This document shows, in pieces, positions 3,235-22,901 of a stretch of DNA of 64,000 bases (position 1 is the first letter of the stretch; each line of letters starts with the position of its first letter). Source of the stretch: Shinella pollutisoli (GTDB lineage: Bacteria > Pseudomonadota > Alphaproteobacteria > Rhizobiales > Rhizobiaceae); assembly GCF_024609765.1 (NCBI RefSeq), contig NZ_JANFDG010000007.1:1-64000 (forward strand), read 5' to 3'. The notes below the pieces were generated by a model. That model made no database searches. It saw only the letters and a list, made by a program, of their open reading frames with translations, and was not told the origin of the DNA. Position numbers and translations under genes: made by a program.

Positions 3235-3236
3235 GG

Positions 3237-5406: not shown

Positions 5407-5408
5407 GG

Positions 5409-5427: not shown

Positions 5428-5570
5428 TGCCGCCTCAGGGGACATCGCGCATCGCCGCCGCTGACCCGGCAGGGTAGGGATGCGGCGGGCCTTTGTGTTC
5501 CGGACCGGCATCGGCATGCGTGGGGCTTGCCGGCCGCCGGTGCGCGCAACTTCGAATTCGGGACTCGACG

Positions 5571-7697: not shown

Positions 7698-7742
7698 CGG
7701 GTGCGCCCATCCGGACCGTGGCCGGATGGGACCGCTTCCGCG

Positions 7743-8618
7743 TCAGGAAGCCTGCCGCATCCGCCGCCAGGCGGCGGGTGTGCCTCCGACGATCTGCCGG
7801 AAGGCCTTCGTCAGGTGCGCCTGGTCGGAAAAGCCGAGCTGGGCGGCGATGTCGGCGATGGTCAGCTCGCTTTCCAGAAGCAGTTGCTGCGCCCTGTCGA
7901 TGCGCTTGCCGAGCTGCCATTGCAGCGGCGTCTTGCCGGTCGTCTGCTTGAAGACGTTGGCGAACCAGCTTTCGGAGAGGCCCACGGTTTCCGCCATGTC
8001 GGCGACGCTCAGGCGGCCGTCGCTGCAGGCGCCGAGGCGCGAGACCAGCTTGTTCATCTGCGCCTGCGTGAGCCGGCCGTTGACGTGCTCGGCGCCGTGG
8101 TCGGGAATGTCGAGCAGGCCGGCGACGATGCTCGCCACGAGGCTTTCGGCATAGACCGCATGTTTCGTCGGGTTCGACACCTCGTCGACGAGCAGGCCGG
8201 CCAGGGCCTCGATTGCGCCGACGTCCTGGATCTCCACCGGCCGGCGCAGGGCCGCCAGCGCCGCCGACGCGCCGACGGAGGGGGAGAGGAACCGCAGCAG
8301 GCGGTCCCTGTGGATATGCAGGTCGAGATGGGAGAAGCGGTGCGCGGACGTGAAGCCGGTCCACAGCGGCACGCCGGCCGGCACGTATATGGCCCGCATC
8401 ATCGGGCGGGAATGCACGCCGATGCCGCCTTCGCGGTTCGTCATCTGGATGAAGGGCGAGACGTCGTTGAAGAAGATCACGATGCGCGGATCGGGCGACA
8501 GGTAATAGCCTTTGGCGCCCGCCTGGCCTTCCGCATCCCAGAATACGCCCACCAGGCCGTCCATGCTGCGCCATCTGACCGGCGCGAGCACCTTGATGCC
8601 TTCCGTATAGCAGGTCAT
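7743..8618 (-). CDS. AraC-family transcriptional regulator
   Basis: This is a 291-residue regulator with the usual pair of C-terminal helix-turn-helix motifs (roughly residues 190-290; recognition segments LSVADMAETVGLSESWFANVFK and LTIADIAAQLGFSDQAHLTKAFR, each shown here only in part by family pattern). The N-terminal half is a ligand or sensor domain with no recognised signature. The position beside the receptor suggests control of the siderophore locus, as with PchR/RhrA-type activators. The start is uncertain: ATG 8618 is used, but an in-frame GTG six codons upstream is also possible. Confidence 0.82.
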   Translation of the reverse strand: MTCYTEGIKVLAPVRWRSMDGLVGVFWDAEGQAGAKGYYLSPDPRIVIFFNDVSPFIQMTNREGGIGVHSRPMMRAIYVPAGVPLWTGFTSAHRFSHLDLHIHRDRLLRFLSPSVGASAALAALRRPVEIQDVGAIEALAGLLVDEVSNPTKHAVYAESLVASIVAGLLDIPDHGAEHVNGRLTQAQMNKLVSRLGACSDGRLSVADMAETVGLSESWFANVFKQTTGKTPLQWQLGKRIDRAQQLLLESELTIADIAAQLGFSDQAHLTKAFRQIVGGTPAAWRRMRQAS

Positions 8619-8940
8619 TGAGTGCAGATACGTCACCGCCCGAAGTGGCTCCCGTCTTTTGGCAATCCCGGCATATCTTTTCCGCTGGCATCCCGAACGA
8701 TGCAAGACCCTGCGAAAGCTCCCGGCTGCAGACGACAGCCGCGCAAGGTCCGGACGTCGGTTTTAAGATGACAAAAAATATCATGTTTTTCCGACGAGGC
8801 AAGGGATGCCGCGTGAACACGCCGAAAATGTGCCTTGGGAGGCCGGTTCGCCGAGATTCACGTGGAGGGAATGCCGCCGTCCGATAGGGGCGCAGGCGGA
8901 TGGGGCCGCGACCGCTACCGGACGACTCGTCCGCGACCGG
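8619..8940. other. Intergenic region upstream of the AraC gene
   Basis: This 322-base stretch separates the AraC start from the stop of the sugar ABC permease, both on the minus strand. I see no convincing gene. The AT-rich patch at 8760-8790 contains the candidate iron box listed separately. Confidence 0.45.
8769..8783. promoter_or_regulatory. Candidate iron-responsive operator (TGA-N9-TCA)
   Basis: TGACAAAAAATATCA matches the TGA-N9-TCA pattern described for RirA boxes in rhizobia. It lies about 150 bases upstream of the AraC start in an AT-rich patch. The motif carries little information, so a chance match is quite possible. Confidence 0.35.
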
Positions 8941-9942
8941 CTAGGCGCCGACGCTCTTGCGCTCCCTGCGGCGGCGCGCGTATTCCGCAAGGCCGACCGT
9001 CGTGATGAGCATCGCGCCGTTGAACAGCGGTTCGACGAAGAACGGGGCGCCCAGCTGGCTGAGGCCGGTCACTGCGATGGCCAGCACGGCCACGGCGAGC
9101 AGCGTGCCGCCGACATTGGCCCGTCCCGGGCGGACGGACGTGACGCCGAGCAGGGCGCCGGTGAAGGCCGGCAGCAGCATCTCCTGCCCGACGGTGCTCT
9201 GGCCGACCAGAAGCTGCGCCTGGAGGATGACGCCGGCGAAGGCGGCGATCACGCCGGAGGCGATGAAGGCGAGCGTCACGTAGCGCGCCGAGCGGATGCC
9301 CATCAGCTCGGCCGCACGGGGATTGTCGCCGATGATGTAGAGGAAGCGGCCGACCGGCAGGTACTCGAAGACGATCCACAGCACGATGGCGAAGAAGGCC
9401 ACATAGAGAATGACGACGGGGATGCCGAGGCCCGGGATCATGCCCGACAGCGACGTGAAGGCTTCGGGCAGGGCGCCGATCACCTGCTGTCCGCCCGTGT
9501 ACCACTGGTTGAGGCCCAGCAGCACCGTGCCCGAGCCCAGCGTGGCGATGAAGGAGCTCACGCCCGCCCGGCTGACGAGCAGGCCGTTGATCCAGCCGAC
9601 GATCCCGCCGCCGACGAGGATGATCAGCACGGTCGCCTGCCAGGAGAGGCCCTGCTGCGTCTGCAGGCCGTTCGCCAGCACCTGGGCGAAGCCGAGCGTC
9701 GAGGCGACGGACAGGTCGAAATGGTTCGCGGCGAGCGGAATCATCACGGCCAGGGCCAGCAGCGCATAGATGGAGCGCGCATTGAGCACCGAGTTGAAGG
9801 TGAAGGCGGTGAGGAACGTGTCGCCCTTGAGGATCGCAAACAGCAGGAAGAGCGCGACGAGCAGCACGAGGAGTCCCCAGGAGGACAGCAGATGCTGGAG
9901 GCGTGCCACGGGATTGGTCTTGGCGATGGATGACGAGGACAT
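8941..9942 (-). CDS. Ribose-type ABC transporter permease (RbsC family)
   Basis: This is a 333-residue inner-membrane permease of the BPD_transp_2 family that carries sugars or sugar acids. It has about ten hydrophobic segments, the conserved DLSVASTLGFAQVLANG region (about residues 75-92), and the family block GRFLYIIGDNPRAAELMGIRS. The ATG at 9942 overlaps the ATPase stop by one base (TGATG). It is the last gene of a three-gene SBP-ATPase-permease operon. Substrate is unknown; context suggests a sugar acid or its lactone. Confidence 0.9.
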   Translation of the reverse strand: MSSSSIAKTNPVARLQHLLSSWGLLVLLVALFLLFAILKGDTFLTAFTFNSVLNARSIYALLALAVMIPLAANHFDLSVASTLGFAQVLANGLQTQQGLSWQATVLIILVGGGIVGWINGLLVSRAGVSSFIATLGSGTVLLGLNQWYTGGQQVIGALPEAFTSLSGMIPGLGIPVVILYVAFFAIVLWIVFEYLPVGRFLYIIGDNPRAAELMGIRSARYVTLAFIASGVIAAFAGVILQAQLLVGQSTVGQEMLLPAFTGALLGVTSVRPGRANVGGTLLAVAVLAIAVTGLSQLGAPFFVEPLFNGAMLITTVGLAEYARRRRERKSVGA

Positions 9943-11480
9943 CAGTCTTTTCCTGTATGGGCCGTGTCGGCGCTGTCGGCCGAAAGGGCCACGAGCTTCG
10001 ACACCGAAAGCTGGTCGCGGCCGACTTCGTGCGTGATGCGTCCGCGATTGAAGACGAGCGCCCGGTGGGCGATGCCGGCGACCTCTTCCATGTCGGCGGA
10101 GATGAGAAGGATGGCCATTCCCGCGTCCAGCGCCTCCTGGAAAAGCCCGTAGATCTCGGCCTTGGCGCCGACGTCCACCCCGAGCGTCGGCTCTTCGAGG
10201 ACGATCACGCGCCGTCCCGCGGCGAGCCAGCGGGCGACGATGATCTTCTGCTGGTTGCCGCCGCTGAGCGTCGCGATGATGCGCTCGGGGTCGGCGGGGC
10301 GAACGGAGAAGCGCCGGATGATCTCCCGGGCGTCCTGCCGCTCCCTGGCCGGTCCGATCGGCGTAAAGGCGCTGCGTCCGAACAGGCCCGGGTCCGGATA
10401 GAGGTTCTCGCGGACGGTCAGCCCGCCGGCGAGGCTCTCCTCACGGCGCTTGGAGGACACGAAGCCGATGCCGCGCCGTGTCGCCTCGAAGGGCGCGCGC
10501 ACCCTGGCGTCGGCGCCGTCGAGCCGCACGACGCCTCCGCGGATCTCCATGTCGCCGTAGATCGCCCGGCCGATCTCGGCCTGCCCGGCGCCCCTCAGGC
10601 CCACCAGGCCGAGGATCTCGCCGGCGCGCAGGGAGAAGGAGACGGGTCCGACCTTGCGGACCGTCAGCTCCTCGACCTCCATCACGACCCGGCCCGTCTC
10701 GGCGACGGGCGTGACGAAGACCTCGTCGAGCGGCCGCCCGACGATGGCGTGAACGAGCTGCGCCGAATCGACCGCGCTCACCGGATCGGAGCGCACGCGC
10801 TTTCCGTTGCGCAGCACCGTGATGCGGTCGGCGATCCGGAACACCTCGTCGAGGCGATGGGTCACGTAGAGCACGGCGACGCCGCGGTCGCGCAGCCGCA
10901 CCACGGTGTCGAGGAGCCTCGACACGTCCTGTTCCGGCAATGCGGCGGTCGGCTCGTCGAGCACGACGATCTGCGCGTCGAGCGCAAGGGCGCGGGCGAT
11001 GGCGACGATCGCCTTGTCGGCCGCCGAGAGGCCGCCGACGCGCGCGTCGGGATCGATGTCGGTGCTGAGTCGGGACAGCGCCTCGACGCCGGCCCGGCGC
11101 GTCCCGCGCCAGTCGATCAGCCCCGCCCTGCGCCGGTAGCCGGCGATGAGCGCGACGTTCTCGGCCACCGTCATCGTGTCGACGAGGCCGAGATCCTGGT
11201 GGATGAAGGCGATGGGAAGCGCGCCGGGCGCGGGCTCGACCGGCTTGCCGTCGAGCAGGAACGTGCCGGCATCGGCCTGGTACACGCCGGCCAGGATCTT
11301 GATCAGCGTGGACTTGCCGGCGCCGTTCTCGCCGAGCAGGGCATGCACTTCGCCGCGGTGAAGGTCGAGCGCCACGTCGTCCAGCGCCCGCGTCCCCACG
11401 AAGCTCTTCTCCAGGCCACGGATGGCGAGGAAAGCCTCGCCATCCGTGGCCGCGGCCGCCTTGGGAGCAACCTTGTTCAC
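9942..11480 (-). CDS. Ribose-type ABC transporter ATPase (RbsA family, duplicated domains)
   Basis: This 512-residue protein holds two fused ABC domains. The first has Walker A GENGAGKST and VVLDEPTAAL. The second has a degenerate Walker A region (GLVGLRGAGQAE), the signature LSGGNQQK, and VLEEPTLGVDVGAK, where Glu replaces the usual first Asp of Walker B. Asymmetric domains of this kind are normal for RbsA/MglA. The GTG start at 11480 overlaps the binding-protein stop as GTGA. The longer open frame upstream runs antiparallel in character to the binding-protein gene and is not used. Confidence 0.9.
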   Translation of the reverse strand: MNKVAPKAAAATDGEAFLAIRGLEKSFVGTRALDDVALDLHRGEVHALLGENGAGKSTLIKILAGVYQADAGTFLLDGKPVEPAPGALPIAFIHQDLGLVDTMTVAENVALIAGYRRRAGLIDWRGTRRAGVEALSRLSTDIDPDARVGGLSAADKAIVAIARALALDAQIVVLDEPTAALPEQDVSRLLDTVVRLRDRGVAVLYVTHRLDEVFRIADRITVLRNGKRVRSDPVSAVDSAQLVHAIVGRPLDEVFVTPVAETGRVVMEVEELTVRKVGPVSFSLRAGEILGLVGLRGAGQAEIGRAIYGDMEIRGGVVRLDGADARVRAPFEATRRGIGFVSSKRREESLAGGLTVRENLYPDPGLFGRSAFTPIGPARERQDAREIIRRFSVRPADPERIIATLSGGNQQKIIVARWLAAGRRVIVLEEPTLGVDVGAKAEIYGLFQEALDAGMAILLISADMEEVAGIAHRALVFNRGRITHEVGRDQLSVSKLVALSADSADTAHTGKD

Positions 11481-12574
11481 TCGACGCCCCAGAGCTTCAG
11501 GTAGCGGTTCGCGAAGTCGTTGTCGGGAATGTAGGTGTTCTTGTCGCCGCCCTGCGCGTCGACGTTGCTCGCGGTCACGAGATACGGCAGCGGCACGGTG
11601 CCGCTCGGCGGAAGCTTGTGCAGCGCGCGGTTCATCTCGTCCACCGCCTGGTAGCCGACATAGGCGTTCGGTTCGGCGACCGTCACCGCCTGGTACTGGT
11701 TGCCGGCGCGGATGCGGCCGTAGGCCGACTTCGTTCCGTCGGAGCCGACGAGGATGACCTGGCTCGGATCGGCGCCGCCGGCCTTCAGGGCCGGAACCTG
11801 GAAGTCCAGCGTGAAGTCGGCGATGGCGGTGATATAGAGCGGCGTGCCGTATTTCTGCACCCATGAGGCCACGAGCTGCGGCTGGCGCTGGGCCGCCTCG
11901 GCGAGCGGCGTGTTCGAGAATTCGAGGACCTCGCAGCCTTCGCACTGCGCCAGCCGGTCTTTGACCGCCGTCGCCTTGACCATCGCGATCGCATATTCGC
12001 CGCTCGTGGTGACGACGACGCGCGCCTTGCCGTCGGAATGGGCGATGACCCAGTCCGCCTGCGCTTCGCCGATGGCCTTGGGATCCTGCTGGATATTGGT
12101 GAAGAGGCCGAGGTCCGGCTGCGGGCCGGGCGTGCCGGCCGCATGGATTCCCACCACCGGGATGTCCTGGGCGGTCGCCTGCTTGATGGCTTCGGCGAGG
12201 CTGCGGGCGTCGGCGCTGGTGATGATGCCGTCGACCTTCAGCGAGATGGCCTGGTTCATGCCGGACAGCCAGCTGACCGGGCTGCCGCGGCCGTCGATGA
12301 CGGTGACCTTCCAGCCGGCCTTCTCGCCCGCCTCCACGATCGCCCGGCCCCATTCGCGCTCGGCATCGTTCTGCTCGTTCGCGGAGACATAGGCGATGTG
12401 CTTGCCCTTCTCGATCTTCGGCCCCTCGCTCGGTCCGGACCATTCGGTCTTTTCCGCGCCGAGGCGCTCGATGTTCTGCTTCGCCTCGCTCACGATATCC
12501 TGTGCGAGGGCTGGCGACGCCAGCGCAACCGTCAACCCCACGACGAGCGCCTGCGCTCTACGAAACGTCTTCAT
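11477..12574 (-). CDS. Ribose-type ABC transporter substrate-binding protein
   Basis: This 365-residue periplasmic binding protein has a clear signal peptide (MKTFRRAQ then a hydrophobic core, cut after ALA near residue 24) and a type I sugar-binding fold (PF13407-like). The ATG at 12574 is preceded by GGAGGAAG. It opens the transporter operon and lies divergent from the amidohydrolase gene, with one copy of the 13-bp GntR-type operator between them. Ligand unknown. Confidence 0.9.
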   Translation of the reverse strand: MKTFRRAQALVVGLTVALASPALAQDIVSEAKQNIERLGAEKTEWSGPSEGPKIEKGKHIAYVSANEQNDAEREWGRAIVEAGEKAGWKVTVIDGRGSPVSWLSGMNQAISLKVDGIITSADARSLAEAIKQATAQDIPVVGIHAAGTPGPQPDLGLFTNIQQDPKAIGEAQADWVIAHSDGKARVVVTTSGEYAIAMVKATAVKDRLAQCEGCEVLEFSNTPLAEAAQRQPQLVASWVQKYGTPLYITAIADFTLDFQVPALKAGGADPSQVILVGSDGTKSAYGRIRAGNQYQAVTVAEPNAYVGYQAVDEMNRALHKLPPSGTVPLPYLVTASNVDAQGGDKNTYIPDNDFANRYLKLWGVE

Positions 12575-12632
12575 ATCTTCCTCCGCCCGGTGAAATCCCT
12601 TCGCAATGCCGATCGGCATGCTGGACTAACCT

Positions 12633-12645
12633 AATGTCTGATATT
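12633..12645. promoter_or_regulatory. 13-bp operator, copy 1 of 3
   Basis: AATGTCTGATATT, identical to the copies at 14448-14460 and 15968-15980. It is a near palindrome around the central T: five of six base pairs match. It sits in the 140-base divergent region between the ABC transporter operon and the amidohydrolase gene, so one bound regulator could control both. The FadR-type GntR protein at 13671-14432 is the likely partner. Confidence 0.75.
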
Positions 12646-12714
12646 ATGATGTGTCAATGGAGTTGCTTCACGATGACAGGAAGCGCCCATTCAAGCCAGC
12701 GTCAGGACGAGAGA

Positions 12715-13566
12715 ATGCCGAGCTTTCCGATCATAGACAGCCATGTCCACCTCTATGACGTGAATCGTCTGAGCTATAGCTGGCTGGAGAGGCGCCCGGG
12801 AATCAACCGGCCGCATCTCTTCGAGGACTATGCCCGGGCAACGGCCGGCGTCGAGGTCGAGAAGCTCGTTTTCGCGGAAGTCTGGGTCGATCCGCACCTC
12901 AATCTCGCCGAGGCGGACTGGCTCGCCGAGCAGGCCGCCCGCCATCCCGCCATCGCCGGCATGATCGCGGCCGCGCCGCTGGAGATCGGCCGCCGGATCC
13001 AGCCGCAGATCGAGCATCTGCGGCGCCATCCGACCTTCCGGGCCATCCGACGGATCACCGAGGCCGAGGCCGACGACGCCTATTGCCTGCGGCCCGATTT
13101 CGTCGAGGGCGTGCGGCTTCTCGGCGAGCAGGGCATCGTCTGCGACGTCTGCGTCTTCCACCACCAGCTTCCCGGCGTCATCGGCCTGGCGCGGCTCTGC
13201 CCGGACACGACGATCGTGCTGGATCACATCGGCAAGCCGCCGATCCGGACCGGAGAGCGCGATCCCTGGCGCGACAATCTCAGGCAGCTGGCCGCGCTTC
13301 CGAATGTCCATTGCAAGATCTCGGGCGTGGTGACCGAGGCCGATCAGGCGAACTGGAGCCGCGAGATCATCCGGCCGTATGTCGATCATGCCATCGAGTG
13401 CTTCGGCTTCGACCGCATCATGTTCGGAAGCGACTGGCCGGTGCTCGCGCTCACCACCGGCTACGGGGAATGGGTCGAGATGGTCGACTGGATCGTCGAG
13501 GAGTGCGCAGTGGGCGACAGGCGGAAGCTCTACCGGGACAATGCCGCGAAAGTCTATCGCCTCTAG
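12715..13566 (+). CDS. Amidohydrolase-2 family protein, probable sugar-acid lactonase
   Basis: This 283-residue TIM-barrel metal-dependent hydrolase belongs to COG3618, whose studied members open lactones of fucose, rhamnose and related sugars. Metal-site motifs are present: HVHLYD near the N-terminus (residues 10-15), VLDHIGKPP in the middle, and GSDWPV near the end. The ATG at 12715 follows AGGACGAGAG; an in-frame ATG at 12673 would add 14 residues of no family value. The gene is co-directional with the GntR gene 105 bases downstream. Lactone hydrolysis is inferred from the family; the substrate is unknown. Confidence 0.8.
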   Translation: MPSFPIIDSHVHLYDVNRLSYSWLERRPGINRPHLFEDYARATAGVEVEKLVFAEVWVDPHLNLAEADWLAEQAARHPAIAGMIAAAPLEIGRRIQPQIEHLRRHPTFRAIRRITEAEADDAYCLRPDFVEGVRLLGEQGIVCDVCVFHHQLPGVIGLARLCPDTTIVLDHIGKPPIRTGERDPWRDNLRQLAALPNVHCKISGVVTEADQANWSREIIRPYVDHAIECFGFDRIMFGSDWPVLALTTGYGEWVEMVDWIVEECAVGDRRKLYRDNAAKVYRL

Positions 13567-13670
13567 GAGGGACGCCGGGAATCGGCTCGCATTGAAGGGT
13601 GCGACAGCGTTATGTTATTGATCCTGAAACGTCGGCCACAGTGCACCCGACATCACCCGAGAGGGCATCC

Positions 13671-14432
13671 GTGAAGAAAGACATCCTGCAAAACGCCTCG
13701 CAAGCCATCGATCCCGAACGGATCTTCGCGACGCCGCGGGAGATCGTGCCGATCCAGCGCGCGACCCTGCCGCAGGAAATCGTCAAGGCGATCGCCGATC
13801 TCATACGCCGCGGCGTCTGGCGGGCAGGCGACATGATCCCGGCGGAGAAGGAGCTCGCCACGCAGTTCGGCGTCGGGCGGTCCACCATCCGGGAAGCGGT
13901 CAAGAGCCTCGCGGTGATGGGCGTGATCGAGTCGCGCGCCGGCGAGGGCTCCTTCCTGCGGCAGCCGTCCTCCGAGGCGCTGGCGGGCGCCATGATGTGG
14001 GGCCTGCTTCTGAGCGAGCGCAATCTCGACGATCTGCTCGAGGCGCGGATCCTGATCGAGGTGGAGTGTTCCTCCAAGGCGGCGGAGCTTCGCGGCGACG
14101 ACGTCCCGCCGCGGCTCTACAGGATCGTCGAGGAGATGCGGAACCATTTCTCGGACTATTCCCGCTTCATGGCGCTCGACAACGAGTTCCATGTGCTTCT
14201 TGCGCGCTCGGCGGGCAACGTCCTCTATTCCACGATGGCCGAGACGATCCAGGGCCTCGTCCGCATATGGTATTCGGCGACCTACGACATTCCGGGAACG
14301 ATGGACCTGACGATCGCCGAGCACATGCGGATCGTCGACGCCGTGAGGGACCGGAACGAGCTCGCTGCGAAGGAGGCCATGCGTGCGCATCTCTCCCGCG
14401 CGGGGTCGCGGCTCAAGCTCGCGCTCGGATAG
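13671..14432 (+). CDS. GntR-family regulator, FadR subfamily
   Basis: This 253-residue regulator has an N-terminal winged helix (PAEKELATQFGVGRSTIREAVKSL pattern, about residues 40-70 from this start) and a C-terminal FCD ligand domain with the metal-binding His spread (DNEFHVLLA, EHMRIVDA). The GTG at 13671 is chosen because GAGAGGG precedes it at suitable distance. Another in-frame GTG at 13599 would add 24 residues that do not look like this family. It is the probable reader of the three 13-bp operators that flank it. Confidence 0.87.
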   Translation: MKKDILQNASQAIDPERIFATPREIVPIQRATLPQEIVKAIADLIRRGVWRAGDMIPAEKELATQFGVGRSTIREAVKSLAVMGVIESRAGEGSFLRQPSSEALAGAMMWGLLLSERNLDDLLEARILIEVECSSKAAELRGDDVPPRLYRIVEEMRNHFSDYSRFMALDNEFHVLLARSAGNVLYSTMAETIQGLVRIWYSATYDIPGTMDLTIAEHMRIVDAVRDRNELAAKEAMRAHLSRAGSRLKLALG

Positions 14433-14447
14433 GGTTTCGCGTTTTTA

Positions 14448-14460
14448 AATGTCTGATATT
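14448..14460. promoter_or_regulatory. 13-bp operator, copy 2 of 3
   Basis: AATGTCTGATATT lies 15 bases after the GntR stop and about 90 bases before the chosen start of the FMN dehydrogenase gene. It marks a separate promoter for that gene. An ATG at 14468, only 7 bases on, is therefore unlikely to be the translation start. Confidence 0.75.
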
Positions 14461-14551
14461 CGGAAATATGATTGACGAACGAACATGGGCAGGACAGAAA
14501 GGCATGGGGCTTACAGCATCCGAACTATCGAGGGGCTCATGGAACGTGGCG

Positions 14552-15754
14552 ATGCCGGAAAAATCATCTGAGACCGTTCCGCGGGACCACCGGTTCACAA
14601 GCATCGATGCCGTGCGGGAAATCGCCCGGCGCAGGCTGCCGCGGATGGTGTTCGACTTCGCCGACGGCGGCGCCGAGACCGAGCGCACGATGCGCCGCAA
14701 CGAAGAAGCCTTCGGCAACCTGCAGCTGATGCCGCGTCCCCTAAGCGGCGGCGCGGAACGGGATCTCTCCGTCACGCTTCTCGGCACCAGGCTGTCCATG
14801 CCGCTGATCATCGGGCCGACGGGCTTCGCCGGTCTCTTCTGGCCGCAGGGCGAACTCGCCGCCGCCCGGGCGGCGCACGCGGCCGGGACGGCCTATGTGA
14901 TGAGCCATGCCTCGACGATCACGATCGAGAGGCTGGCGCGGGACGCCGCCGGGCCGAACTGGTTCCAGAATTTCATCTACAGGGACCGGGGCCTGACCAG
15001 GTCCTTCGCCGAGCGGGCGCTCGCGAGCGGCTACGACGCCATGGTGATCACCATCGACAACCAGGTGCCCGGGTTTCGCGAGCGCGACGTCCGGAACGGC
15101 TTCGTCGTTCCGCCGCGGATCACCGTGCGGAATGCGGTCGACCTGATTCTGCACCCGGGTTGGGGGTTGCGGATGCTGCGCACGCCGAACCTGACCTTCG
15201 CCAACTACGCCTCCGCCGAGCATGCCAGCATCATGGCGCTGAGCGCCTACATGGCCAGCAACCTCAATCCCGACGTGTCCTGGGACGATATCGACGCCGC
15301 CCGCAGGACATGGCCGGGAAAGCTGCTGGTAAAGGGGATCCTGCATCCGCTCGATGCCGTCGAGGCCATCGAGCGGGGGGCGGACGGCATCATCGTGTCG
15401 AACCACGGCGGCCGCCAGCTCGACGGCGCCCCCGCGACGATCGAGGTCCTGCCGGCGATCGTGGAGGCTGTCGCCGGCCGTGTGCCGGTGCTGCTGGACG
15501 GAGGTGTCAGGCGGGGCGCGGACGTGGTCAGGGCGCGCGCGCTGGGGGCTGCGGCATGTCTCATCGGTCGGCCCCAGCTCTGGGGCCTGGCCGCCGGCGG
15601 AGAATACGGCGTTCGCCAGGTGCTCGAGATCCTGCGCGAGGAGATGGACCGCGTGCTCGCCCTCTGCGGCATCCGAAGCGTCGCAGACATCGATGCATCC
15701 TGCCTCCGGCGCGAGGGGAATCCCGGCAGCGACCCCGCTTCCGGAACCGTGTGA
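14552..15754 (+). CDS. FMN-dependent alpha-hydroxy-acid dehydrogenase
   Basis: This 400-residue TIM-barrel flavoenzyme belongs to the L-lactate dehydrogenase/glycolate oxidase family and oxidises an alpha-hydroxy acid to the 2-oxo acid. Recognisable blocks are ARRRLPRMVFDFADGG, MPLIIGPTGFAGLFWPQGE, GFRERDVRNGF, the catalytic-histidine block VSNHGGRQLDGAP, and the FMN phosphate region LLDGGVRRGADVVRARALGA. Start 14552 gives the usual short N-terminal extension; 14504, which follows an AGAAAGG, is an alternative adding 16 residues. It may oxidise the sugar acid released by the neighbouring lactonase, which is inference from context only. Confidence 0.87.
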   Translation: MPEKSSETVPRDHRFTSIDAVREIARRRLPRMVFDFADGGAETERTMRRNEEAFGNLQLMPRPLSGGAERDLSVTLLGTRLSMPLIIGPTGFAGLFWPQGELAAARAAHAAGTAYVMSHASTITIERLARDAAGPNWFQNFIYRDRGLTRSFAERALASGYDAMVITIDNQVPGFRERDVRNGFVVPPRITVRNAVDLILHPGWGLRMLRTPNLTFANYASAEHASIMALSAYMASNLNPDVSWDDIDAARRTWPGKLLVKGILHPLDAVEAIERGADGIIVSNHGGRQLDGAPATIEVLPAIVEAVAGRVPVLLDGGVRRGADVVRARALGAAACLIGRPQLWGLAAGGEYGVRQVLEILREEMDRVLALCGIRSVADIDASCLRREGNPGSDPASGTV

Positions 15755-15967
15755 CATGGGAAGCGGAACGGCTTCACGCTTCGAAAGGAAGCGGAAACGC
15801 TCCGGGTCGACGTGTGCGTCGGGCGCCTGTGGTTTGCGGGCCATCGGATCGTTCAGGCTTTCGGCGGGCCGGCGGGAACGACGTTCCGGGACGTACTGGA
15901 TGCCGGAACGCGCCAAAAATATCGGCGTAGCGCCGTCATGAAGGGCCGCATGCTCGACAGCTTGTCA
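15755..15967. other. Gap before the ApnO-like gene, nothing recognised
   Basis: About 210 bases between the FMN dehydrogenase stop and the third 13-bp operator. Open frames crossing it on both strands have no recognisable protein character, and I see no terminator with a T run. Confidence 0.4.
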
Positions 15968-15980
15968 AATGTCTGATATT
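15968..15980. promoter_or_regulatory. 13-bp operator, copy 3 of 3
   Basis: AATGTCTGATATT, exact repeat of the other two copies, 72 bases before the ApnO-like start. It places the ApnO-like gene, and probably the TRAP transporter behind it, under the same regulator as the ABC transporter and the lactonase. Confidence 0.75.
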
Positions 15981-16051
15981 CAGTTGTTTAATCGATGGCT
16001 CTGGGAAACCCCGGCGGCCACCAGATCCGGAATGGAAGGAAGGAACGGGAA

Positions 16052-16879
16052 ATGACGGTAATTGCCCTGGTCGGCGCGGGCGGGAAAATGGGATATCGCC
16101 TGTCCAAGAACCTGATCGGCTCGCGCTTTCAGGTCCGCCATGTCGAGGTCAGCGATGCCGGCAAGGCGCGGCTGGAGAAGGACCTCGGAATCCGCACCGT
16201 GGGCATGGACGATGCGCTGAACGGGGCGGAGGTGGTCATCCTCGCCGTACCGGACACCGCGATCGGCAAGGTCGCCGGCGGCATCGTCGACAAGCTTGCG
16301 GCCGGCACCATGCTCGTCATCCTGGACGCTGCGGCGCCGATGGCCGGGCATCTGCCCGCCCGTGAGGACATCAGCTATTTCGTGACGCATCCGTGCCATC
16401 CCCCGATCTTCAACGACGAGACGGAGCCTGCCGCCAAGCGCGATTTCTTCGGCGGTGTCGCCGCCAAGCAGCACATCGTCTCGGCTCTCATGCAGGGGCC
16501 GGAGGAAGCCTACGCGCTCGGCGAGGAGGTCGCCAAGGTCATCTGGGCGCCGGTGATGCGCTCGCACAGGGTGACGGTCGAGCAGATCGCGCTTCTCGAG
16601 CCCGGCCTGTCGGAGACGGTCTGCGCCTCGCTGCTCAGCGTCATGCGCGAGGCGATGGACGAATGCGTCGAGCGCGGCGTGCCGAAGGAGGCCGCGCGCG
16701 ATTTCCTGCTCGGCCACATGAACGTGCTCGGCGCCGTCATTTTCGAGGAGACGCCCGGCGTCTTTTCGGATGCCTGCAACAAGGCGATCGAATTCGGCGT
16801 GCCGGCCCTCATGAAGAACGACTGGAAGAAGGTGTTCGAGCCGGAGGAGATTCTCGAAAGCGTCCGCCGCATAACCTGA
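16052..16879 (+). CDS. NAD-binding oxidoreductase with phosphogluconate-dehydrogenase-like C-terminus (ApnO-like)
   Basis: This 275-residue protein has an N-terminal Rossmann fold with GAGGKMG at residues 8-14 and an all-helical C-terminal domain of the 6PGDH/PDH_C kind. From memory the sequence resembles D-apionate oxidoisomerase ApnO, including the opening TVIALVGAGGKMGYRL and the THPCHPPIFNDE segment. ApnO converts D-apionate to 3-oxoisoapionate. The ATG at 16052 follows AGGAAGGAACGGG. It has its own operator copy upstream and precedes the TRAP genes by about 155 bases. Activity on another branched or linear sugar acid is equally possible. Confidence 0.7.
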   Translation: MTVIALVGAGGKMGYRLSKNLIGSRFQVRHVEVSDAGKARLEKDLGIRTVGMDDALNGAEVVILAVPDTAIGKVAGGIVDKLAAGTMLVILDAAAPMAGHLPAREDISYFVTHPCHPPIFNDETEPAAKRDFFGGVAAKQHIVSALMQGPEEAYALGEEVAKVIWAPVMRSHRVTVEQIALLEPGLSETVCASLLSVMREAMDECVERGVPKEAARDFLLGHMNVLGAVIFEETPGVFSDACNKAIEFGVPALMKNDWKKVFEPEEILESVRRIT

Positions 16880-17035
16880 CGCACAACGGCTGGCGCCGCG
16901 CACCGGAAGGCGTGCGTGGCGCGAGGGGGAAGACTTCGGACGGCCGTTGACGTCCGACTGTCCGATGCGCGTCCGAGGATGGGACGTGCGCTATTTACCG
17001 CCGCTGACAGCAAGCGGCCAATTGGGAGGAAGAGG

Positions 17036-18028
17036 ATGAAATTTTCGCAGATTCTCATGACCATGGCTTTGGTCGCGTCCGGTGCCGTCCATGCGATGGC
17101 GCAGGAGGTCAAGGAAATCCGGCTGGGCTCGCCCTGGCCGACGTCGAGCACGATCCATGTGGCGCTGCCGGTCTTCGCAGACGAGGTGGAGCGCCTTTCC
17201 GAGGGGCGCATCAAGGTTCGCGTCTATCCCGACAGCCAGCTCGGCGACATCCAGTCGCTGATCAACGGCGTGCAGCTCGGCACGGTGGACATGACCTATC
17301 TCGCGATCGGCAATGCCGGTGTCCTGCGCGGCGGCCAGGCCCTCAACGTCGCCTATGTCCCGTACCTGTTCAAATCCAAGGAGCAGGCGGAGAAGATCGC
17401 CAACGGCGAGCTCTTCAAGGGGCTCTACGACGACCTTGCCGAACAGTCCGGCGTGCGGATCTTCGCCGTCTACGGCGCCCGTTCGCCCAGAGCGGTGCAG
17501 AACAGCCAGCGTGCCATCGCGAAGCCCGAGGACCTGCAGGGGCTGAAGATCCGGATACCGCCGATCGACGGCATACGGGCGGCGTTCGAGGCCATGGGCG
17601 CGCGGCCCGTCGTCCTCGGCCTCGGGGATACCTACAACGCCATCGAGCGCCATCAGGTCGACGGGCACGAGAACGGCATCGACGCGGCGGTCGGATACAA
17701 GTGGTACGAGGTCGCCAAGCACTTCACGCCGACCGAGCACATCTACGAGACCGCCGCCTGGTACATCAACGACAAGCTGTGGAATTCCTTCACCGACGAG
17801 GAGCGGTCCATCTTCCTCGAGGCGGCGAAGGCCGGCGGCACGGCGATGACGGCGGCCGGTGAGAAGATCGACGCCGAGGGCTACGCGATCTTCGAGGCCG
17901 AGGGCGTCACGGTCACGCAGCCGGATACGGAGGCGTTCCGCGCGTTCCTCAAGGACGTGCACCTGCCCTTCGAGGGCAAGGTCTGGCCGGAAGGGCTGGT
18001 CGAGCAGATCCGGGCGATGCAGGAATAG
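17036..18028 (+). CDS. dctP: TRAP transporter substrate-binding protein DctP
   Basis: This 330-residue periplasmic binding protein has a signal peptide ending AMA-QE near residue 22 and the family pattern EVERLSEGRIKVRVYPDSQLG, then the central PEDLQGLKIRIPP block with the ligand-carboxylate Arg. TRAP systems import sugar acids and other organic acids by sodium gradient. The start follows GGGAGGAAGAGG. A perfect hairpin follows the gene, before DctQ, as expected where the binding protein needs higher expression than the membrane parts. Confidence 0.9.
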   Translation: MKFSQILMTMALVASGAVHAMAQEVKEIRLGSPWPTSSTIHVALPVFADEVERLSEGRIKVRVYPDSQLGDIQSLINGVQLGTVDMTYLAIGNAGVLRGGQALNVAYVPYLFKSKEQAEKIANGELFKGLYDDLAEQSGVRIFAVYGARSPRAVQNSQRAIAKPEDLQGLKIRIPPIDGIRAAFEAMGARPVVLGLGDTYNAIERHQVDGHENGIDAAVGYKWYEVAKHFTPTEHIYETAAWYINDKLWNSFTDEERSIFLEAAKAGGTAMTAAGEKIDAEGYAIFEAEGVTVTQPDTEAFRAFLKDVHLPFEGKVWPEGLVEQIRAMQE

Positions 18029-18041
18029 CGCCCCGGCTCCA

Positions 18042-18074
18042 AGGGCGCGCCCGTCCCCCGGATGGGCGCGCCCT
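18042..18074 (+). terminator. Intra-operon hairpin between dctP and dctQ
   Basis: Perfect 11-bp arms AGGGCGCGCCC (18042-18052) and GGGCGCGCCCT (18064-18074) with an 11-base loop and no T run. It is likely an mRNA-stabilising or partial termination structure that favours dctP. Confidence 0.6.
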
Positions 18075-18156
18075 GTGCCGTTTCCGTAAGCAAGCCGTCC
18101 ACGAAACCGCAGATCCAAGCTCTGCTTGGCCCGCCTGGCCGAATGAGGAACCGTGT

Positions 18157-18666
18157 ATGAAGTTTACTACAATCGATCGATACGTCGGGATCTTCGGCTT
18201 CTGGTTCGGAAGGCTGCTGGACACGGTCATCGGCCTGCTGATCGCCGGCCTGCTCGCGGTCGTCTTCTCGCAGTTCATCGACCGGAACTTCTTTCCGTTC
18301 TGGCGGGACTCGCCGGAGGAATACGTCAAGATCGGGCTCACGTGGCTTTGCTTCATCGGGGTCGTCCGGGCGTTTTCCGCCAACGAGCATATACGCGTCA
18401 CGATCCTCCAGGATTCGCTGCCCCCGTGGCTGGTGGTGTGGATCGATACGTTCATAGACGCGCTCCTTCTGGTGCTGCTGCTGATCCTCACCGTGAAGTG
18501 CTGGCAGATGGTCCAGGCCGCGCAATATCAGATCGTGCTGGGGACGGACCTGTCCCTGGCTGTGCCGGCCAGCGGGATACTGGTGGGCATCGCGCTGATG
18601 GTGCCGCTCACGGCGTGGCGCATCGTGCGCCGGATCGTTCTTGGCTCCGCCGAGCAGGAGGGCTGA
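18157..18666 (+). CDS. dctQ: TRAP transporter small permease DctQ
   Basis: This 169-residue membrane protein shows four hydrophobic helices, and the SPEEYVKIGLTWLCFIGVVRAF segment between helices 1 and 2 is characteristic of the DctQ family (shared EE..R pattern). It forms the small membrane subunit with DctM. The GAGGA upstream of the ATG at 18157 is a usable ribosome-binding site. The stop lies two bases before the DctM start. Confidence 0.88.
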   Translation: MKFTTIDRYVGIFGFWFGRLLDTVIGLLIAGLLAVVFSQFIDRNFFPFWRDSPEEYVKIGLTWLCFIGVVRAFSANEHIRVTILQDSLPPWLVVWIDTFIDALLLVLLLILTVKCWQMVQAAQYQIVLGTDLSLAVPASGILVGIALMVPLTAWRIVRRIVLGSAEQEG

Positions 18667-18668
18667 GG

Positions 18669-19943
18669 ATGTCGTCCCTGTTCATCATCTTCCTCGTGCT
18701 GCTGTTCATCGGCACGGAGATCGGCTTTGCGATGATCATCGCCGCCTGGCTCGGGATCGAGCTCAAGACCGATCGCTTCGTCGACATGGTCATGCTGCCC
18801 AACTCGATGCTGGGCGGGATCGGCCTTTACGCGCTGGTGCAGATTCCTCTCTTCATCCTCGCCGGCGAGATCATGAACCGCGGCGGCATAACGCGGCATC
18901 TCATCAATTTCGCCTCCGTGTGGGTCGGCCGCGGGCGCGGCAGCCTGGGGCAGGTCTCCGTCGGCGCGAACCTCATGATGGGCGGCATCTCCGGCTCGGC
19001 GGTAGCCGACGCGGTCGCCATCGGCAAGGCGATGATCCCGGAGATGGAGGCCAAGGGCTACGGCAAGACCTATCCGAGCGCGATCGTCGCCGCGGGTGCG
19101 CTTGTCGCCCCCATTCTCCCGCCCTCCATTCCGATGGTGATCTATGCGCAGATGGCCAACGTGTCCGTGGCCAAGATGTTCATGTCCGGCCTGCTTCCGG
19201 GGTTGATCCTCGCGGTCGGGTTCATGACGATCGCCGCGGTGATCGGCCGGCGACGAAACCTGCCGGCCGGCGAAAGGGTCGGATGGGCGGAGAAGGTGCA
19301 GGTGTCGCTCAATGCCGGCTGGGCCATCCTGATGCCGGTCATCATCCTGGTGGGGATCCGGCTCGGCTACATGACGGACACCGAGATCGCGGCGGTCGCC
19401 GTCGTGTATGCCCTCCTGGTCAGCTTCTTCGTCTACCGGTCGATCGCGATAGCGGACCTGCCGGCTCTGTTCGCCTCCGCCGGACGCTCGAGCGCCGTGA
19501 TCCTCTTCCTCCTCGCCGCCGCCGCGCCGTTTTCGTGGCTGGTCGCGGAAAGCCAGGTCGCCGACCATGTCGTGGACGCCATCCACAGCATCTCGACCAA
19601 TCCGATCGTTGTCCTCATCATCGTCAACGTCTTCCTGCTGATCGTCGGGCTGGTGCTGGAGCCGCTGCCGGCAATGGTCATATTCCTGCCGGCGCTGATC
19701 CCGATTGGGCACGAGCTCGGCATCGATCCCGTCCACTTCGGCGCGACCGTCGTCATCAACCTGATGATCGGCCTGATCACGCCGCCGGTCGGCCTGCTGC
19801 TTTTCGTGGTGTCCAGCATATCGCGCGTGCCGTTCGTGAGCATCGCGCGGGAAATAATGCCGTTCCTCCTCTGGGCGCTGGTGCTTCTCGTCCTGACCAT
19901 TCTCTTTCCGCCGCTCACGCTGCTGTTCACGTCCGGCATGTGA
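18669..19943 (+). CDS. dctM: TRAP transporter large permease DctM
   Basis: This 424-residue polytopic permease is the ion-coupled translocation subunit. Around twelve hydrophobic segments are visible, with the typical blocks PLFILAGEIMNRGG, GGISGSAVADAVAIG, and ILPPSIPMVIYA in the middle, and NLMIGLITPPVGLLLFV near the end. It follows dctQ by two bases with GGAGGGCTGAGG as its site. It ends the sugar-acid locus; a GC-rich hairpin lies 17 bases beyond the stop. Confidence 0.9.
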   Translation: MSSLFIIFLVLLFIGTEIGFAMIIAAWLGIELKTDRFVDMVMLPNSMLGGIGLYALVQIPLFILAGEIMNRGGITRHLINFASVWVGRGRGSLGQVSVGANLMMGGISGSAVADAVAIGKAMIPEMEAKGYGKTYPSAIVAAGALVAPILPPSIPMVIYAQMANVSVAKMFMSGLLPGLILAVGFMTIAAVIGRRRNLPAGERVGWAEKVQVSLNAGWAILMPVIILVGIRLGYMTDTEIAAVAVVYALLVSFFVYRSIAIADLPALFASAGRSSAVILFLLAAAAPFSWLVAESQVADHVVDAIHSISTNPIVVLIIVNVFLLIVGLVLEPLPAMVIFLPALIPIGHELGIDPVHFGATVVINLMIGLITPPVGLLLFVVSSISRVPFVSIAREIMPFLLWALVLLVLTILFPPLTLLFTSGM

Positions 19944-19959
19944 CGGTGCCTGCATGCCT

Positions 19960-19998
19960 GCCGGCCGTTCCCGCGAGTTCGCGGGAGCGGCCGCCGGC
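19960..19998 (+). terminator. Hairpin after dctM, probable operon terminator
   Basis: CCGTTCCCGCGA pairs with TCGCGGGAGCGG across a GT turn (one G-T wobble), and outer GCCGG/CCGGC bases extend it to 19960-19998. No T run follows, so termination may be partial or Rho-assisted. Confidence 0.5.
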
Positions 19999-20319
19999 AG
20001 CATGAAACCGGTCCCGACGGTATCCCGGTTTCTCCGGCGAGCAGTGGCGACTCCGACACCTCGTTCGGCGCAACAGGCCGCTCAAACCTACGATACCGAA
20101 AGCACTCCGTGCATCACGCGCAATTCGTGGGCGGCGATCCCTTCGGCACGATCGGGGCCACCATGCCGCTTCCTCTTCTCGTCGTGACAGCACATGAGAA
20201 TGAATGGATGCGTGCTAGCCGCCGATAAGCTATTCCTCGCATTGCCATGGCGCGGACGGCTTTTCCCGCGCTCCCTCCTTGCCTCATCCCGCACGGAATG
20301 AAGTTGCGGGTCACGCTAT

Positions 20320-20355
20320 TTTGTGCGTATATTGAAATTTGTTCGTATTCCGCAC
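20320..20355. promoter_or_regulatory. 36-bp IclR-type operator, copy A (before the IclR gene)
   Basis: The element begins TTTGTGCG, has TGAAATTTGTT in its centre and ends CGCAC. It aligns base for base in length with the elements at 28707-28742 and 35344-35379. It ends 11 bases before the IclR start, so autoregulation is likely. Confidence 0.75.
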
Positions 20356-20366
20356 GGAAATGCATC

Positions 20367-21128
20367 ATGGCCATCAAGGAAACTGATTATCTCGGCGGGC
20401 TGGCGAAGGGCCTCAGCGTCATCGAGGCGTTCACCGCCGAGACGGAGCGCATGTCGATCAGCGACGCGTCGCAGATCACCGGGCTCGACCGGGCGACCGC
20501 GCGCCGCTGCCTCCTGACGCTGCACACGCTCGGCTACGCCAATTACGACGGCAAGTATTTCAGCCTGACGCCGCGCGTTCTGCGCCTCGGCACCGGGTGT
20601 CTCGCCACCATGCCGCTGCCGCGCATCGTCCAGCCCTGGCTGGACACGCTCTCCGCCGAGATCGGCCAGAGCGTCTCGGTGTCGATCCTCGACGGCTGGG
20701 ATATCGTCTACGTGGCGCGTTCGGCCCAGCAGAGGGTCATGTCGATCAGCCTGATGCCCGGCAGCCGCCTGCCGGCCTATTGCACCTCGATGGGCCGGGT
20801 GATTCTCGCCTCGCTGCCGGAGGAGGAGGCGCGTGCCATCCTCGCCATGCGCCCGCTGGAGCAGCGCACCCGCATGACCCGCACCGATATCGAGGACATC
20901 GTGGCGGAGCTGAGGGCGGTGAAGGCGCAAGGCTATGCCATCATCGACCAGGAGGTCGAGATCGGCCTGCGCTCCATCGCCGTGCCGATCCTCAACGCCC
21001 GCGGCCAGACCGTCGCGGCGCTCAATACCGGCGTCGCCGCCCTCCATGCCGATCCGGCGGAGCTGCGCACCCAGTATCTCGAACCGCTGCTGGCGCTGCA
21101 GAAGAACGTCCGGCCGCTCCTGAAATAG
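20367..21128 (+). CDS. IclR-family regulator (PcaR/PobR type)
   Basis: This 253-residue regulator has an N-terminal winged helix (ISDASQITGLDRATARRCL, about residues 32-50) and a C-terminal effector domain with GSRLPAYCTSMGRVILA, the hallmark of the PcaR/PcaU/PobR branch that senses 3-oxoadipate-pathway compounds. The ATG at 20367 (MAIKETDYLGGLAKG) matches the usual N-terminus; the longer frame upstream runs through the operator. The 36-bp element before it recurs at two other promoters of the aromatic locus, which makes this protein the obvious local regulator. Confidence 0.88.
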   Translation: MAIKETDYLGGLAKGLSVIEAFTAETERMSISDASQITGLDRATARRCLLTLHTLGYANYDGKYFSLTPRVLRLGTGCLATMPLPRIVQPWLDTLSAEIGQSVSVSILDGWDIVYVARSAQQRVMSISLMPGSRLPAYCTSMGRVILASLPEEEARAILAMRPLEQRTRMTRTDIEDIVAELRAVKAQGYAIIDQEVEIGLRSIAVPILNARGQTVAALNTGVAALHADPAELRTQYLEPLLALQKNVRPLLK

Positions 21129-21146
21129 CGGCCGGCCGGGCTTTCC

Positions 21147-22901
21147 TCATCGGCCGAGGACGGCGCGGAGCACGCGCGTGAGCTCGGCAGCGGGATCGGC
21201 GCCGAGCCCGGCGCTGCGCCAGGCCACGTGATGGTCGGGCCGCACCAGCACGCAGCCGGCATCCGTAACCTCCCGCAGCTCCGCCCATTCCCCGCCGTGA
21301 TCCTCGTAGTCCCGGCGCGGGCCGATGACGTGGGTGCGGACGTTGATCCCGAGCGCGTCTCCCACCGCTTCGGCCGCCGCCACCCAGGCCTCGCCGCCGA
21401 TGCCGGTGAGCAGCGTGAACCGGCCCCGGCCGGTGAGGTCGAGGGTCGAGTGCCTGGCGCCGGCGCGGTCGTAGACCCAGGCATGCGGCAGGCGCGCGCC
21501 CGGCCATGTGGTCGGCGCATAGTGCAGCTCCGCGTCCTGCGGATAGGCCGGCTCCGGCTCGCCGACGGTGACGGCCGCGCCGGACGCGTAGCGCTGGTTC
21601 ATCTCGACGCCGTGGCAATCGAACTCGTATTTCTTGAAGGCGATCGCCTTGCGCAGCGCCTCGCGCTGCCGCTCGGCGGCGGGCGTGGCGTCGCAGCGCT
21701 GGTCCATGTTGCGCTGGATCTTGTCGTGGTCGACGCCGCCGTCCATGCCGAGCGCCTCGAAGATCGGCCCGAACTCGCCAATCGACTTGTTGGCGCGGGT
21801 GACGATCTGGCGGGCGACCGGCACGCGCTCCTCGCTGTAGCTGTCGAGCAGCGTCGGCGACGCCTCGCCCTTCACCACCATGGCGAGCTTCCAGGCGAGG
21901 TTGAAGGCGTCCTGGATCGAGGTGTTGGAACCGAGGCCGTTCGAGGGCGGATGCCGGTGCGCCGCGTCGCCCATGATGAAGACGCGGCCCTCCTGCATGT
22001 TCGTCGCGAACATGTTGTTGACCGTCCAGGTGTTGGCCGAGAGCAGCTCGATCTCCAGCTCCGGATCGCCGACGAGCTGGCGCGCGACGTTCGTCGCCAT
22101 CGCCGCATCCACCACCGGCGCCGGCTGGCCGATGTCGTAGCCCCAGACGATCAGCCATTCGTTCCACGGCCGCACCATGCGCACCAGGCCCATGCCGATG
22201 CCGCCGACGTCGGCGCCGGGCTGCATCACCCAGTAGAGCACCGAGGGGCGGTGGGCGACGTGGCGCGAGAGATCGGCCCGGAACAGGATGTTCATCGAGC
22301 CGCCGACGCCCATGCGGCCCTCGAAGGGCAGGCCCGCCTGCTGGGCGACCAGCGAATTGGCGCCGTCGGCGCCCACAAGATATCTTGCCCGGATGGTGAA
22401 GTCCTTGCCCGTCAGCCGGTCGCGACAGGTCGCCGTCACGCCGTCGTCGTCCTGCGCGAAGGACAGGAACTCGGTGCTCATGCGCGCCTGAGTGCCGCGC
22501 GTGCACGCAGTCTTGAACAGGAGCGGCTCCATGAAGGTCTGCGGCAGGTCGTTCATGTGACAGGGCGAGGAGAGCTGGTGCTCGGCGCGCGACATGGGGT
22601 GGGTACCCCAGCTCTTCATCCGGCCGAGCTCCTCGCCCGCCAGGCTGACGCAGAAGACGTTCTCGCCCATCAGGTCCTGCCCGGTGGCGAACATGTAGGC
22701 CTCGTCCTCGACGTCCCGGCCGAGGTCGCGCAGCACCTCCATGCAGCGCTGGTTGGTGATGTGCGCGCGCGGCGTGTTGGCGAGCCAGCGGTAGCGGTTG
22801 ACGATCAGGTTGTCGACGCCGTAGCTCGACAGGAGCGCGGCGGTCGCCGTGCCCGCCGGCCCGGTGCCGATGATCAGGACGTCGGTGGTGATGTCTGCCA
22901 A
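21147..22901 (-). CDS. FAD-dependent aromatic monooxygenase (phenol hydroxylase/TfdB type)
   Basis: This 584-residue group A flavin monooxygenase hydroxylates a phenolic ring with NAD(P)H and oxygen. It shows the dinucleotide motif GTGPAG (residues 12-17), the ADGANS segment, and the second FAD motif GRVFIMGDAAHRHPPSNGLG, then a C-terminal thioredoxin-like domain. It resembles 2,4-dichlorophenol 6-monooxygenase and similar phenol hydroxylases. It lies at the end of the ABC-transporter operon after maleylacetate reductase, so its product is probably hydroxyquinol or a precursor. The exact substrate is not determined. Confidence 0.87.
   Translation of the reverse strand: MADITTDVLIIGTGPAGTATAALLSSYGVDNLIVNRYRWLANTPRAHITNQRCMEVLRDLGRDVEDEAYMFATGQDLMGENVFCVSLAGEELGRMKSWGTHPMSRAEHQLSSPCHMNDLPQTFMEPLLFKTACTRGTQARMSTEFLSFAQDDDGVTATCRDRLTGKDFTIRARYLVGADGANSLVAQQAGLPFEGRMGVGGSMNILFRADLSRHVAHRPSVLYWVMQPGADVGGIGMGLVRMVRPWNEWLIVWGYDIGQPAPVVDAAMATNVARQLVGDPELEIELLSANTWTVNNMFATNMQEGRVFIMGDAAHRHPPSNGLGSNTSIQDAFNLAWKLAMVVKGEASPTLLDSYSEERVPVARQIVTRANKSIGEFGPIFEALGMDGGVDHDKIQRNMDQRCDATPAAERQREALRKAIAFKKYEFDCHGVEMNQRYASGAAVTVGEPEPAYPQDAELHYAPTTWPGARLPHAWVYDRAGARHSTLDLTGRGRFTLLTGIGGEAWVAAAEAVGDALGINVRTHVIGPRRDYEDHGGEWAELREVTDAGCVLVRPDHHVAWRSAGLGADPAAELTRVLRAVLGR

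Follow-up and report, generated by a model that had tools for sequence, protein, structure and literature searches.

The window analysed here is a stretch of 64,000 nucleotides from Shinella pollutisoli (contig NZ_JANFDG010000007.1, positions 1 to 64,000). It carries the 13-base word AATGTCTGATATT at 12633-12645, 14448-14460 and 15968-15980, each time exactly and on the plus strand, near the gene for a GntR-type regulator with an FCD domain (13671-14432, plus strand; Pfam GntR 2.1e-18, FCD 6.5e-25), the proposed binder of all three sites. An earlier note on this DNA had interpreted the three copies as operators of that regulator which define one regulon. It held that they occur far more often than chance allows, that they are symmetrical at five of six pairs as FadR-type operators are, and that each stands in a gap before a separate transcript. 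The scan of the window bears out the three exact copies and their positions, and in 100 shuffles of the window that kept its dinucleotide counts three or more matches never arose, in agreement with the claim of an excess over chance. The symmetry was also found as described, with pair 4/10 as the exception, and every copy lies in an intergenic gap when gene starts are chosen by homology.

Counting the 13-mer in the full genome (5,221,616 bases, 79 contigs) returned the three window copies and no other, and no copy of the reversed control word. The looser pattern AWTRTCWGAYAWT finds no place beyond these three; its reversed control occurs in two places (two on each strand). At up to two mismatches the genome contains 11 further places (one with one mismatch, ten with two) versus 5 for the reversed control word, and because the control word also yields such places, the two-mismatch neighbors were taken as background.

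Predicted operator 1 (12633-12649, plus strand; the 13-mer with the right extension ATGA) lies between an ATP-binding cassette (ABC) transporter operon on the minus strand and a lactonase-GntR transcript on the plus strand. The operon encodes a substrate-binding protein (11477-12619; Peripla_BP_4 2.3e-23; likely start at 12574, MKTF...), a sugar-type ATPase (9942-11480; a 512-aa frame) and a permease (8941-9942; BPD_transp_2 7e-27). The Amidohydrolase_2 lactonase-like protein (12715-13566, plus strand) has L-fucono-1,5-lactonase as its best NCBIfam model, at 168.5 bits versus a cut-off of 400. Between its stop codon (13566) and the start of GntR there is no match of the 13-mer within three mismatches, so that GntR, which has no copy directly in front of it, probably shares a transcript with the lactonase, behind site 1. 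Predicted operator 2 (14448-14464, plus strand; the 13-mer and CGGA) lies between GntR and an LldD-like 2-hydroxyacid dehydrogenase dependent on flavin mononucleotide (FMN) (14552-15754, plus strand; FMN_dh 2.5e-134; in-frame starts also at 14468 and 14504). Predicted operator 3 (15968-15984, plus strand; the 13-mer and CAGT) precedes an ApnO-like/PGDH_C oxidoreductase (16052-16879, plus strand; PGDH_C 3e-75; PDB 5t57 1e-126) and the genes of a tripartite ATP-independent periplasmic (TRAP) transporter. These plus-strand genes encode a DctP-type binding protein (16916-18028; DctP 1.8e-60), a DctQ small permease (18157-18666; DctQ 1.5e-15) and a DctM-like large permease (18669-19943; a 424-aa frame). 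The name ApnO is an assumption taken over from the earlier note; the matches obtained here are to PGDH_C and 5t57 only.

The 13-mer at loci with GntR orthologues

In order to determine whether the word travels with the regulator, 201 related genomes were searched for GntR (E <= 1e-30, up to 13 candidates scored per genome). Matches were found in six genomes, S. pollutisoli included, and of the other five only that in genome G169 (53% identical) looks orthologous; no close orthologue of GntR was found in any of 20 genomes of the same genus. A scan of contigs from GTDB genomes gave 22 loci, of which nine (L012-L020) carry clear orthologues (53-80% identical in that scan) and 13 are short helix-turn-helix matches. 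Together with the locus of G169 (L005) they make ten orthologous loci, whose regulators, once aligned, are 50-79% identical to that of the window; these are not fully independent, several having common gene order and ancestry.

The exact word is present at L005, L012, L013, L016 and L020, and a copy with one mismatch at L014, L015, L017 and L018. At up to one mismatch it occurs at 9 of the 10 orthologous loci versus none of 18 control loci, which comprise L006-L010 (about 3.7 kb each, with GntR paralogues of 34% identity) and L021-L033 (of mixed length and composition). No word among the 3,900 that start in 12301-16200 is found at more of the orthologous loci; five are present at 8/10, one of them overlapping the 13-mer. 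Shuffles of the intergenic gaps, with limits set by hand from calls of open reading frames (ORFs) and homology (at L015, the gap before a dehydratase-GntR pair), matched what was observed in 0/1000 cases for nine orthologous loci and in 1/1000 for L012. A weight matrix built from 12 orthologue sites, with the window excluded, ranks the window sites first in the 64 kb at 25.7 bits each, the next place scoring 13.6. A search of G169 (6.9 Mb) that allowed one mismatch gives a single copy of the word, adjoining the orthologue. The whole genomes of eight of the nine contig loci (L017 excepted) contain 14 places within one mismatch, of which, by their coordinates, eight belong to the loci and six do not.

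Gene content was compared across the same stretches. An ABC transporter stands with GntR at L012-L020, with relatives of both the ATPase and the permease, and L005, a stretch of 3.7 kb, shows an ABC binding protein; every one of the ten GntR orthologues has a relative of the substrate-binding protein (37-87% identical) no more than a few kb away. Relatives of the lactonase and of the FMN dehydrogenase (76% identical) were found, among the stretches compared, only at L012 (Rhizobium sp. S152), where a protein called DctQ-DctM by Pfam is 28% identical to the large TRAP permease. Gene order at L012 differs from that of the window: an exact site (8765) stands before the FMN dehydrogenase, a site with two mismatches (11018) before the ABC binding protein, and a site with one mismatch (7836) in the intergenic stretch that separates GntR from a TRAP operon. 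A scan of ten neighboring proteins identified a DRL-type oxidoreductase at L013, 3-hydroxyacyl-CoA-dehydrogenase-like proteins at L013 and L014, and a galactarate/altronate-type dehydratase with a second GntR at L015. Judged by these sequences, the orthologous loci appear to have in common with the window the ABC transporter and GntR only, and one locus the lactonase and FMN dehydrogenase as well. The neighboring enzymes therefore differ between loci, and regulator, transporter and operator form the constant set. At L015 the operator in front of the dehydratase and the orthologue is immediately preceded by the second FCD GntR gene (5482-6258).

Because the word accompanies GntR orthologues, we interpret the 13-mers as operators of the neighboring FadR-type GntR, a claim of the earlier note that now has strong sequence support from the contrast between orthologous and control loci, the gap shuffles and the rearranged locus L012. 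It is very likely, in our judgment, that the FadR-group protein binds the three 13-mer cores and that four transcripts are under its control, namely those of the ABC operon, lactonase-GntR, the FMN dehydrogenase and ApnO-TRAP. Another regulator could in principle bind the sites while GntR controls something else; an AraC-type protein (7743-8705) and an IclR-type protein (20247-21128) are both encoded within the same window, and a further candidate might be encoded elsewhere. However, the AraC- and IclR-type proteins have no match (E up to 1e-8) at L005 and L012-L020, of which L005 (3.7 kb), L016 and L018 were covered partly, and the 13-mer core agrees with published operators of FCD GntRs, which makes a different binder very improbable.

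The placement of the proposed GntR operators relative to promoter-like boxes was examined with a promoter scan. At site 1 it gives a sigma-70-like pair TGGACT-17-TATGAT (12622-12650; shuffle mean 0.2), with the 13-mer inside the spacer and reaching the first base of the -10 box. At site 2 the pair is TTTAAA-17-TATGAT (14444-14472; shuffle mean 0.0), and the 13-mer covers the last two bases of the -35 box, the rest lying in the spacer. By eye, a perfect TTGACA (12657-12652, minus strand) with a poor -10 box faces the ABC operon across site 1, and site 3 is accompanied by TTGTCA (15962) and TTTAAT (15987) with a spacer of 19. A looser scan shows, at L014 and L020, a TTGACA-19-CATAAT pair that reads away from GntR and whose -10 box abuts the operator.

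Several observations weigh against the assignment of the sites to GntR, including the one-sided form of the operator described in the next section. Only a two-mismatch site is found at L019, and two-mismatch words occur at 5 of the 18 control loci. The promoter scan gives no promoter-like pair at site 3, and the looser scan, run without shuffles on 16 sites, finds some pair near nine of them and none at seven. The proposed link of ApnO to the regulon is seen in the window alone; of the single regulon claimed for the three transcripts, the FMN dehydrogenase and ABC parts recur at L012. Finally, the bare 13-mer is present in 25 of the 201 genomes, S. pollutisoli and G169 included, and 24 exact copies lie in 23 genomes without a close GntR orthologue, versus 3 copies of the reversed word. 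For 11 of these 24 copies the surroundings were inspected, and a GntR-like gene was found within about 1.5 kb of none.

The copies elsewhere might be taken to mean that the 13-mer is a common coding word whose copies mark alternative start codons. The word ATGTCTGATATT reads Met-Ser-Asp-Ile, many exact copies in relatives lie inside open frames, some of them apparently as MSDI peptides, and site 1 shares the reading frame of the lactonase ORF; such coding probably explains some of the copies elsewhere. As an explanation of the window sites it is nevertheless exceedingly improbable: coordinate arithmetic puts sites 2 and 3 out of frame with the following genes, conservation continues past the word to the GA at positions 16-17 and falls at 18, and only 1 of 11 sites in L012-L020 is inside a called ORF (at L018, where the ORF extends upstream of the substrate-binding-protein homology; the place L012:7680 and L005 are not counted). 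What is distinctive about the predicted GntR operators is the cluster of three with GntR nearby, not the word by itself. In two of the stretches with copies elsewhere (L039 and L041) exact 13-mers lie in open frames that by eye read MSDIFE, with a likeness to DnaJ.

The regulator and the form of its proposed operator

The regulator scores 66.2 bits with PF00392 (cut-off 27) and 88.4 bits with PF07729 (cut-off 24.3), which places it in the GntR superfamily and the FCD subfamily. A structure model (mean predicted local distance difference test, pLDDT, 76.5; predicted template modelling score, pTM, 0.60) has seven C-terminal helices (101-114, 119-140, 145-158, 163-180, 184-206, 210-226 and 230-252). 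The FadR group is told from the VanR group by seven, not six, effector-domain helices (PMC12042122). The modelled helices give the FadR-group count, and the window GntR is accordingly placed, on the strength of the model, in the FadR rather than the VanR group. Within the recognition helix, G69, R70, S71, T72, R74 and E75 do not vary among 11 orthologues, consistent with one shared operator. Judged by the FadR sequence and a table in PMC4494728, K60 would stand at the position of FadR Arg35. That paper associates this arginine with G at the second base of TKGT; at the sites studied here the base is T. In the effector domain D170, H174, H218 and H240 are invariant in 11 orthologues and align to the D/H/H/H of 2di3. 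Metal-binding regulators of the FCD type carry an aspartate and three histidines in the ligand pocket, which by analogy suggests a metal-held carboxylate effector for this GntR.

We aligned 15 sites, comprising the three of the window, that of L005, three in L012 and one each from L013-L020; the two-mismatch place L012:7680 was omitted, as it lies inside a called ORF (6742-7761). Positions 1, 3, 5, 6, 8, 9 and 11 are invariant, and positions 4 and 10 are G and T, respectively, in 14/15 sites. To the right of the 13-mer, every site has A or C at position 14 and G at position 16 (15/15), and 13/15 have A at position 17; the left mirror positions of this extension are weaker (C in 8/15, T in 8/15). 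Mean pairwise identity among 11 sites, taken column by column, is 0.20-0.44 at position 18 and beyond, and 0.18-0.53 to the left of position 1. The predicted operator is longer and more lopsided than the earlier note has it, namely AWTGTCTGATATT-MNGA, or the element AWTGTCTGATATTMNGA, with its extension on the GATA side. The pattern TRTCWGAYATNNNGA matches sites 1 and 2 only, since site 3 lacks the final A.

Operators of the FadR subfamily are described as a palindrome GT-N3-AC with A/T-rich flanks (PMC4494728). The left half has GT in 14/15 sites, and the spacing and five of six core pairs fit this palindrome. The right half is GATA and not GACA in 14/15 sites, giving AT for the AC of the family, and the GATA half would lack the G contacted by the family's arginine. 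In Atu1419 a G-to-A/C-to-T change in both half-sites abolished binding (PMC7797058), which makes a natural loss of the arginine-contacted G on one side notable. The GA at +9/+10 fits the weaker accessory half-boxes reported in 23 GntR-family groups, which lie 7-12 nt from the center (PMC4494728). The symmetry described in the earlier note holds for five of six core pairs, and the element as a whole extends beyond 13 bp and is consistently asymmetric. This asymmetry is the sole unusual point of an otherwise ordinary regulon, the rest of which is a new example of a known regulator type.

A -10 box was considered as the cause of the asymmetry and rejected: TATTAT is found at positions 10-15 in 7/15 sites, and not at sites 2 and 3 or L012:8765, and L012:11018 also points away from its gene.

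It is conceivable, if somewhat doubtful, that the operator is directional by design and that the dimer would recognize it in one orientation only, in a manner between FadR palindromes and NanR direct repeats. Across orthologues the sites carry one consensus half (TGTC), one GATA half and a one-sided GA box at +9/+10. A related possibility shares much with the best explanation, from which only its reading of the site sets it apart: GntR may bind a direct-repeat operator as E. coli NanR does (period 8, CTRA-N4-CTGA-N4-MTGA), with more than one dimer, and not a FadR palindrome. This would account for the fixed asymmetry, and identity in the 21-base element is 0.53 at lag 8 versus 0.15-0.38 at the remaining lags between 4 and 12, although lag 8 rests on few columns of a single consensus. 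The NanR model (NF003011) is the best NCBIfam model of the window GntR, and the NanR and LldR models each match all 11 orthologues, but the NanR score is far under the curated cut-off (137.5 versus 260 bits). Moreover, the N-terminal region, which in NanR forms the cooperativity extension, is short or unalignable in 9 of 10 orthologues (ORF starts being uncertain), and five of six core pairs are inverted-symmetric. We consider a direct-repeat operator unlikely.

Proposed regulon and genomic context

A GntR dimer would occupy each site and block RNA polymerase, acting as a repressor. The single operator in the divergent gap would serve both the ABC operon and the lactonase-GntR transcript, which would imply autoregulation of GntR, and the other two would serve the FMN dehydrogenase and the ApnO-TRAP genes. 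The lactonase, the FMN 2-hydroxyacid dehydrogenase, the ApnO-like enzyme and the ABC and TRAP transporters suggest that a sugar lactone or aldonate is taken up and oxidized. A carboxylate derived from the transported sugar acid or lactone may bind the Asp/His3 site of the FCD domain and release the repressor; given the gene content of the regulon, the inducer can be sought among lactones and aldonates. The locus offers a testable regulon for a sugar-acid pathway, in which one regulator and three sites would govern three enzymes and two transporters. With the conserved asymmetry of its sites, it is also well suited to the question of how one-sided loss of the key arginine-guanine contact is borne by a symmetric FCD dimer. 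Should the extended motif AWTGTCTGATATTMNGA be confirmed, it would be of help in annotating the regulon wherever other bacteria carry this GntR.

The genome encodes four ApnO-like genes, the other three being 86, 82 and 53% identical to the window copy. In 14 and 18 kb around other ApnO-like genes there is no 13-mer within two mismatches. Only the window copy is tied to an operator, and it may have been recruited to the regulon, since the other three are not near one. Ten frames around the other copies were compared to Pfam: two are sugar-type Peripla_BP_4, one is ZnuA, one is GFO_IDH_MocA and six match nothing, some of these frames probably not being genes.

The cluster at 12633-16000 looks accessory, and was perhaps acquired, because its GntR lacks a close orthologue in all 20 genomes of the genus that were searched. 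The GntR protein is matched by 1,397 plasmid records, all below 60% identity and at most 34.5% among the 40 matches listed, and by no phage record at 1e-30. For the DNA of 9000-20000 no plasmid match covers more than 80% of the length; the ten records listed of 186 cover 7-8%, at the ApnO-like gene. Elsewhere in the window, a siderophore-type cluster occupies 312-5422 on the minus strand (SIP/FAD-binding protein, ABC ATPase, FecCD permease and Peripla_BP_2), and at 20247-22901 a PcaR-type IclR regulator adjoins a FAD aromatic-ring hydroxylase on the opposite strand.

Comparison with known systems

A literature search for the 13-mer and its parts showed no GntR operator in titles among the matches listed, and one on apiose and apionate showed no such regulator in titles or abstract starts among the matches listed. 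Individual FCD regulators provide close parallels. The operators of LhgR (TTGTCTGACAA; PMC8206213), AlkR (ATTGTCAGACAAT; PMC12042122) and AnsR (CTGTCTGACAG; PMC9145765) share with the predicted operators a GntR/FCD-type protein, a TGTC-N-GA core at the 13-bp scale and an association with catabolic genes. At sites 1 and 2 the predicted operators lie over promoter-like elements, as that of AlkR covers -10 regions; the AnsR operator is just downstream of the start. They differ from the TGTC-N-GACA of all three systems in the right half GATA (14/15) and the one-sided GA extension, and the targets of LhgR, AlkR and AnsR differ from the window genes. AlkR was assigned to the VanR group by its authors (PMC12042122).

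E. coli NanR is asymmetric too, one domain being bound to consensus and one to non-consensus DNA, and its N-terminal extension is needed for cooperativity (PMC8012715). The window word differs from the (GGTATA)3 of NanR, the N-terminal region is unconserved in the orthologues, and ligand and targets are unrelated. Atu1419 of Agrobacterium fabrum (PMC7797058) resembles the regulator described here in being an FCD protein with three identical short operators, which overlap the -10 box or sit between the -35 and -10 boxes, its own promoter included. Atu1419 is a VanR-group tetramer on a perfect palindrome, ATGTATACAT, whereas in the model of the window GntR the C-terminal helices number seven, as in the FadR group.

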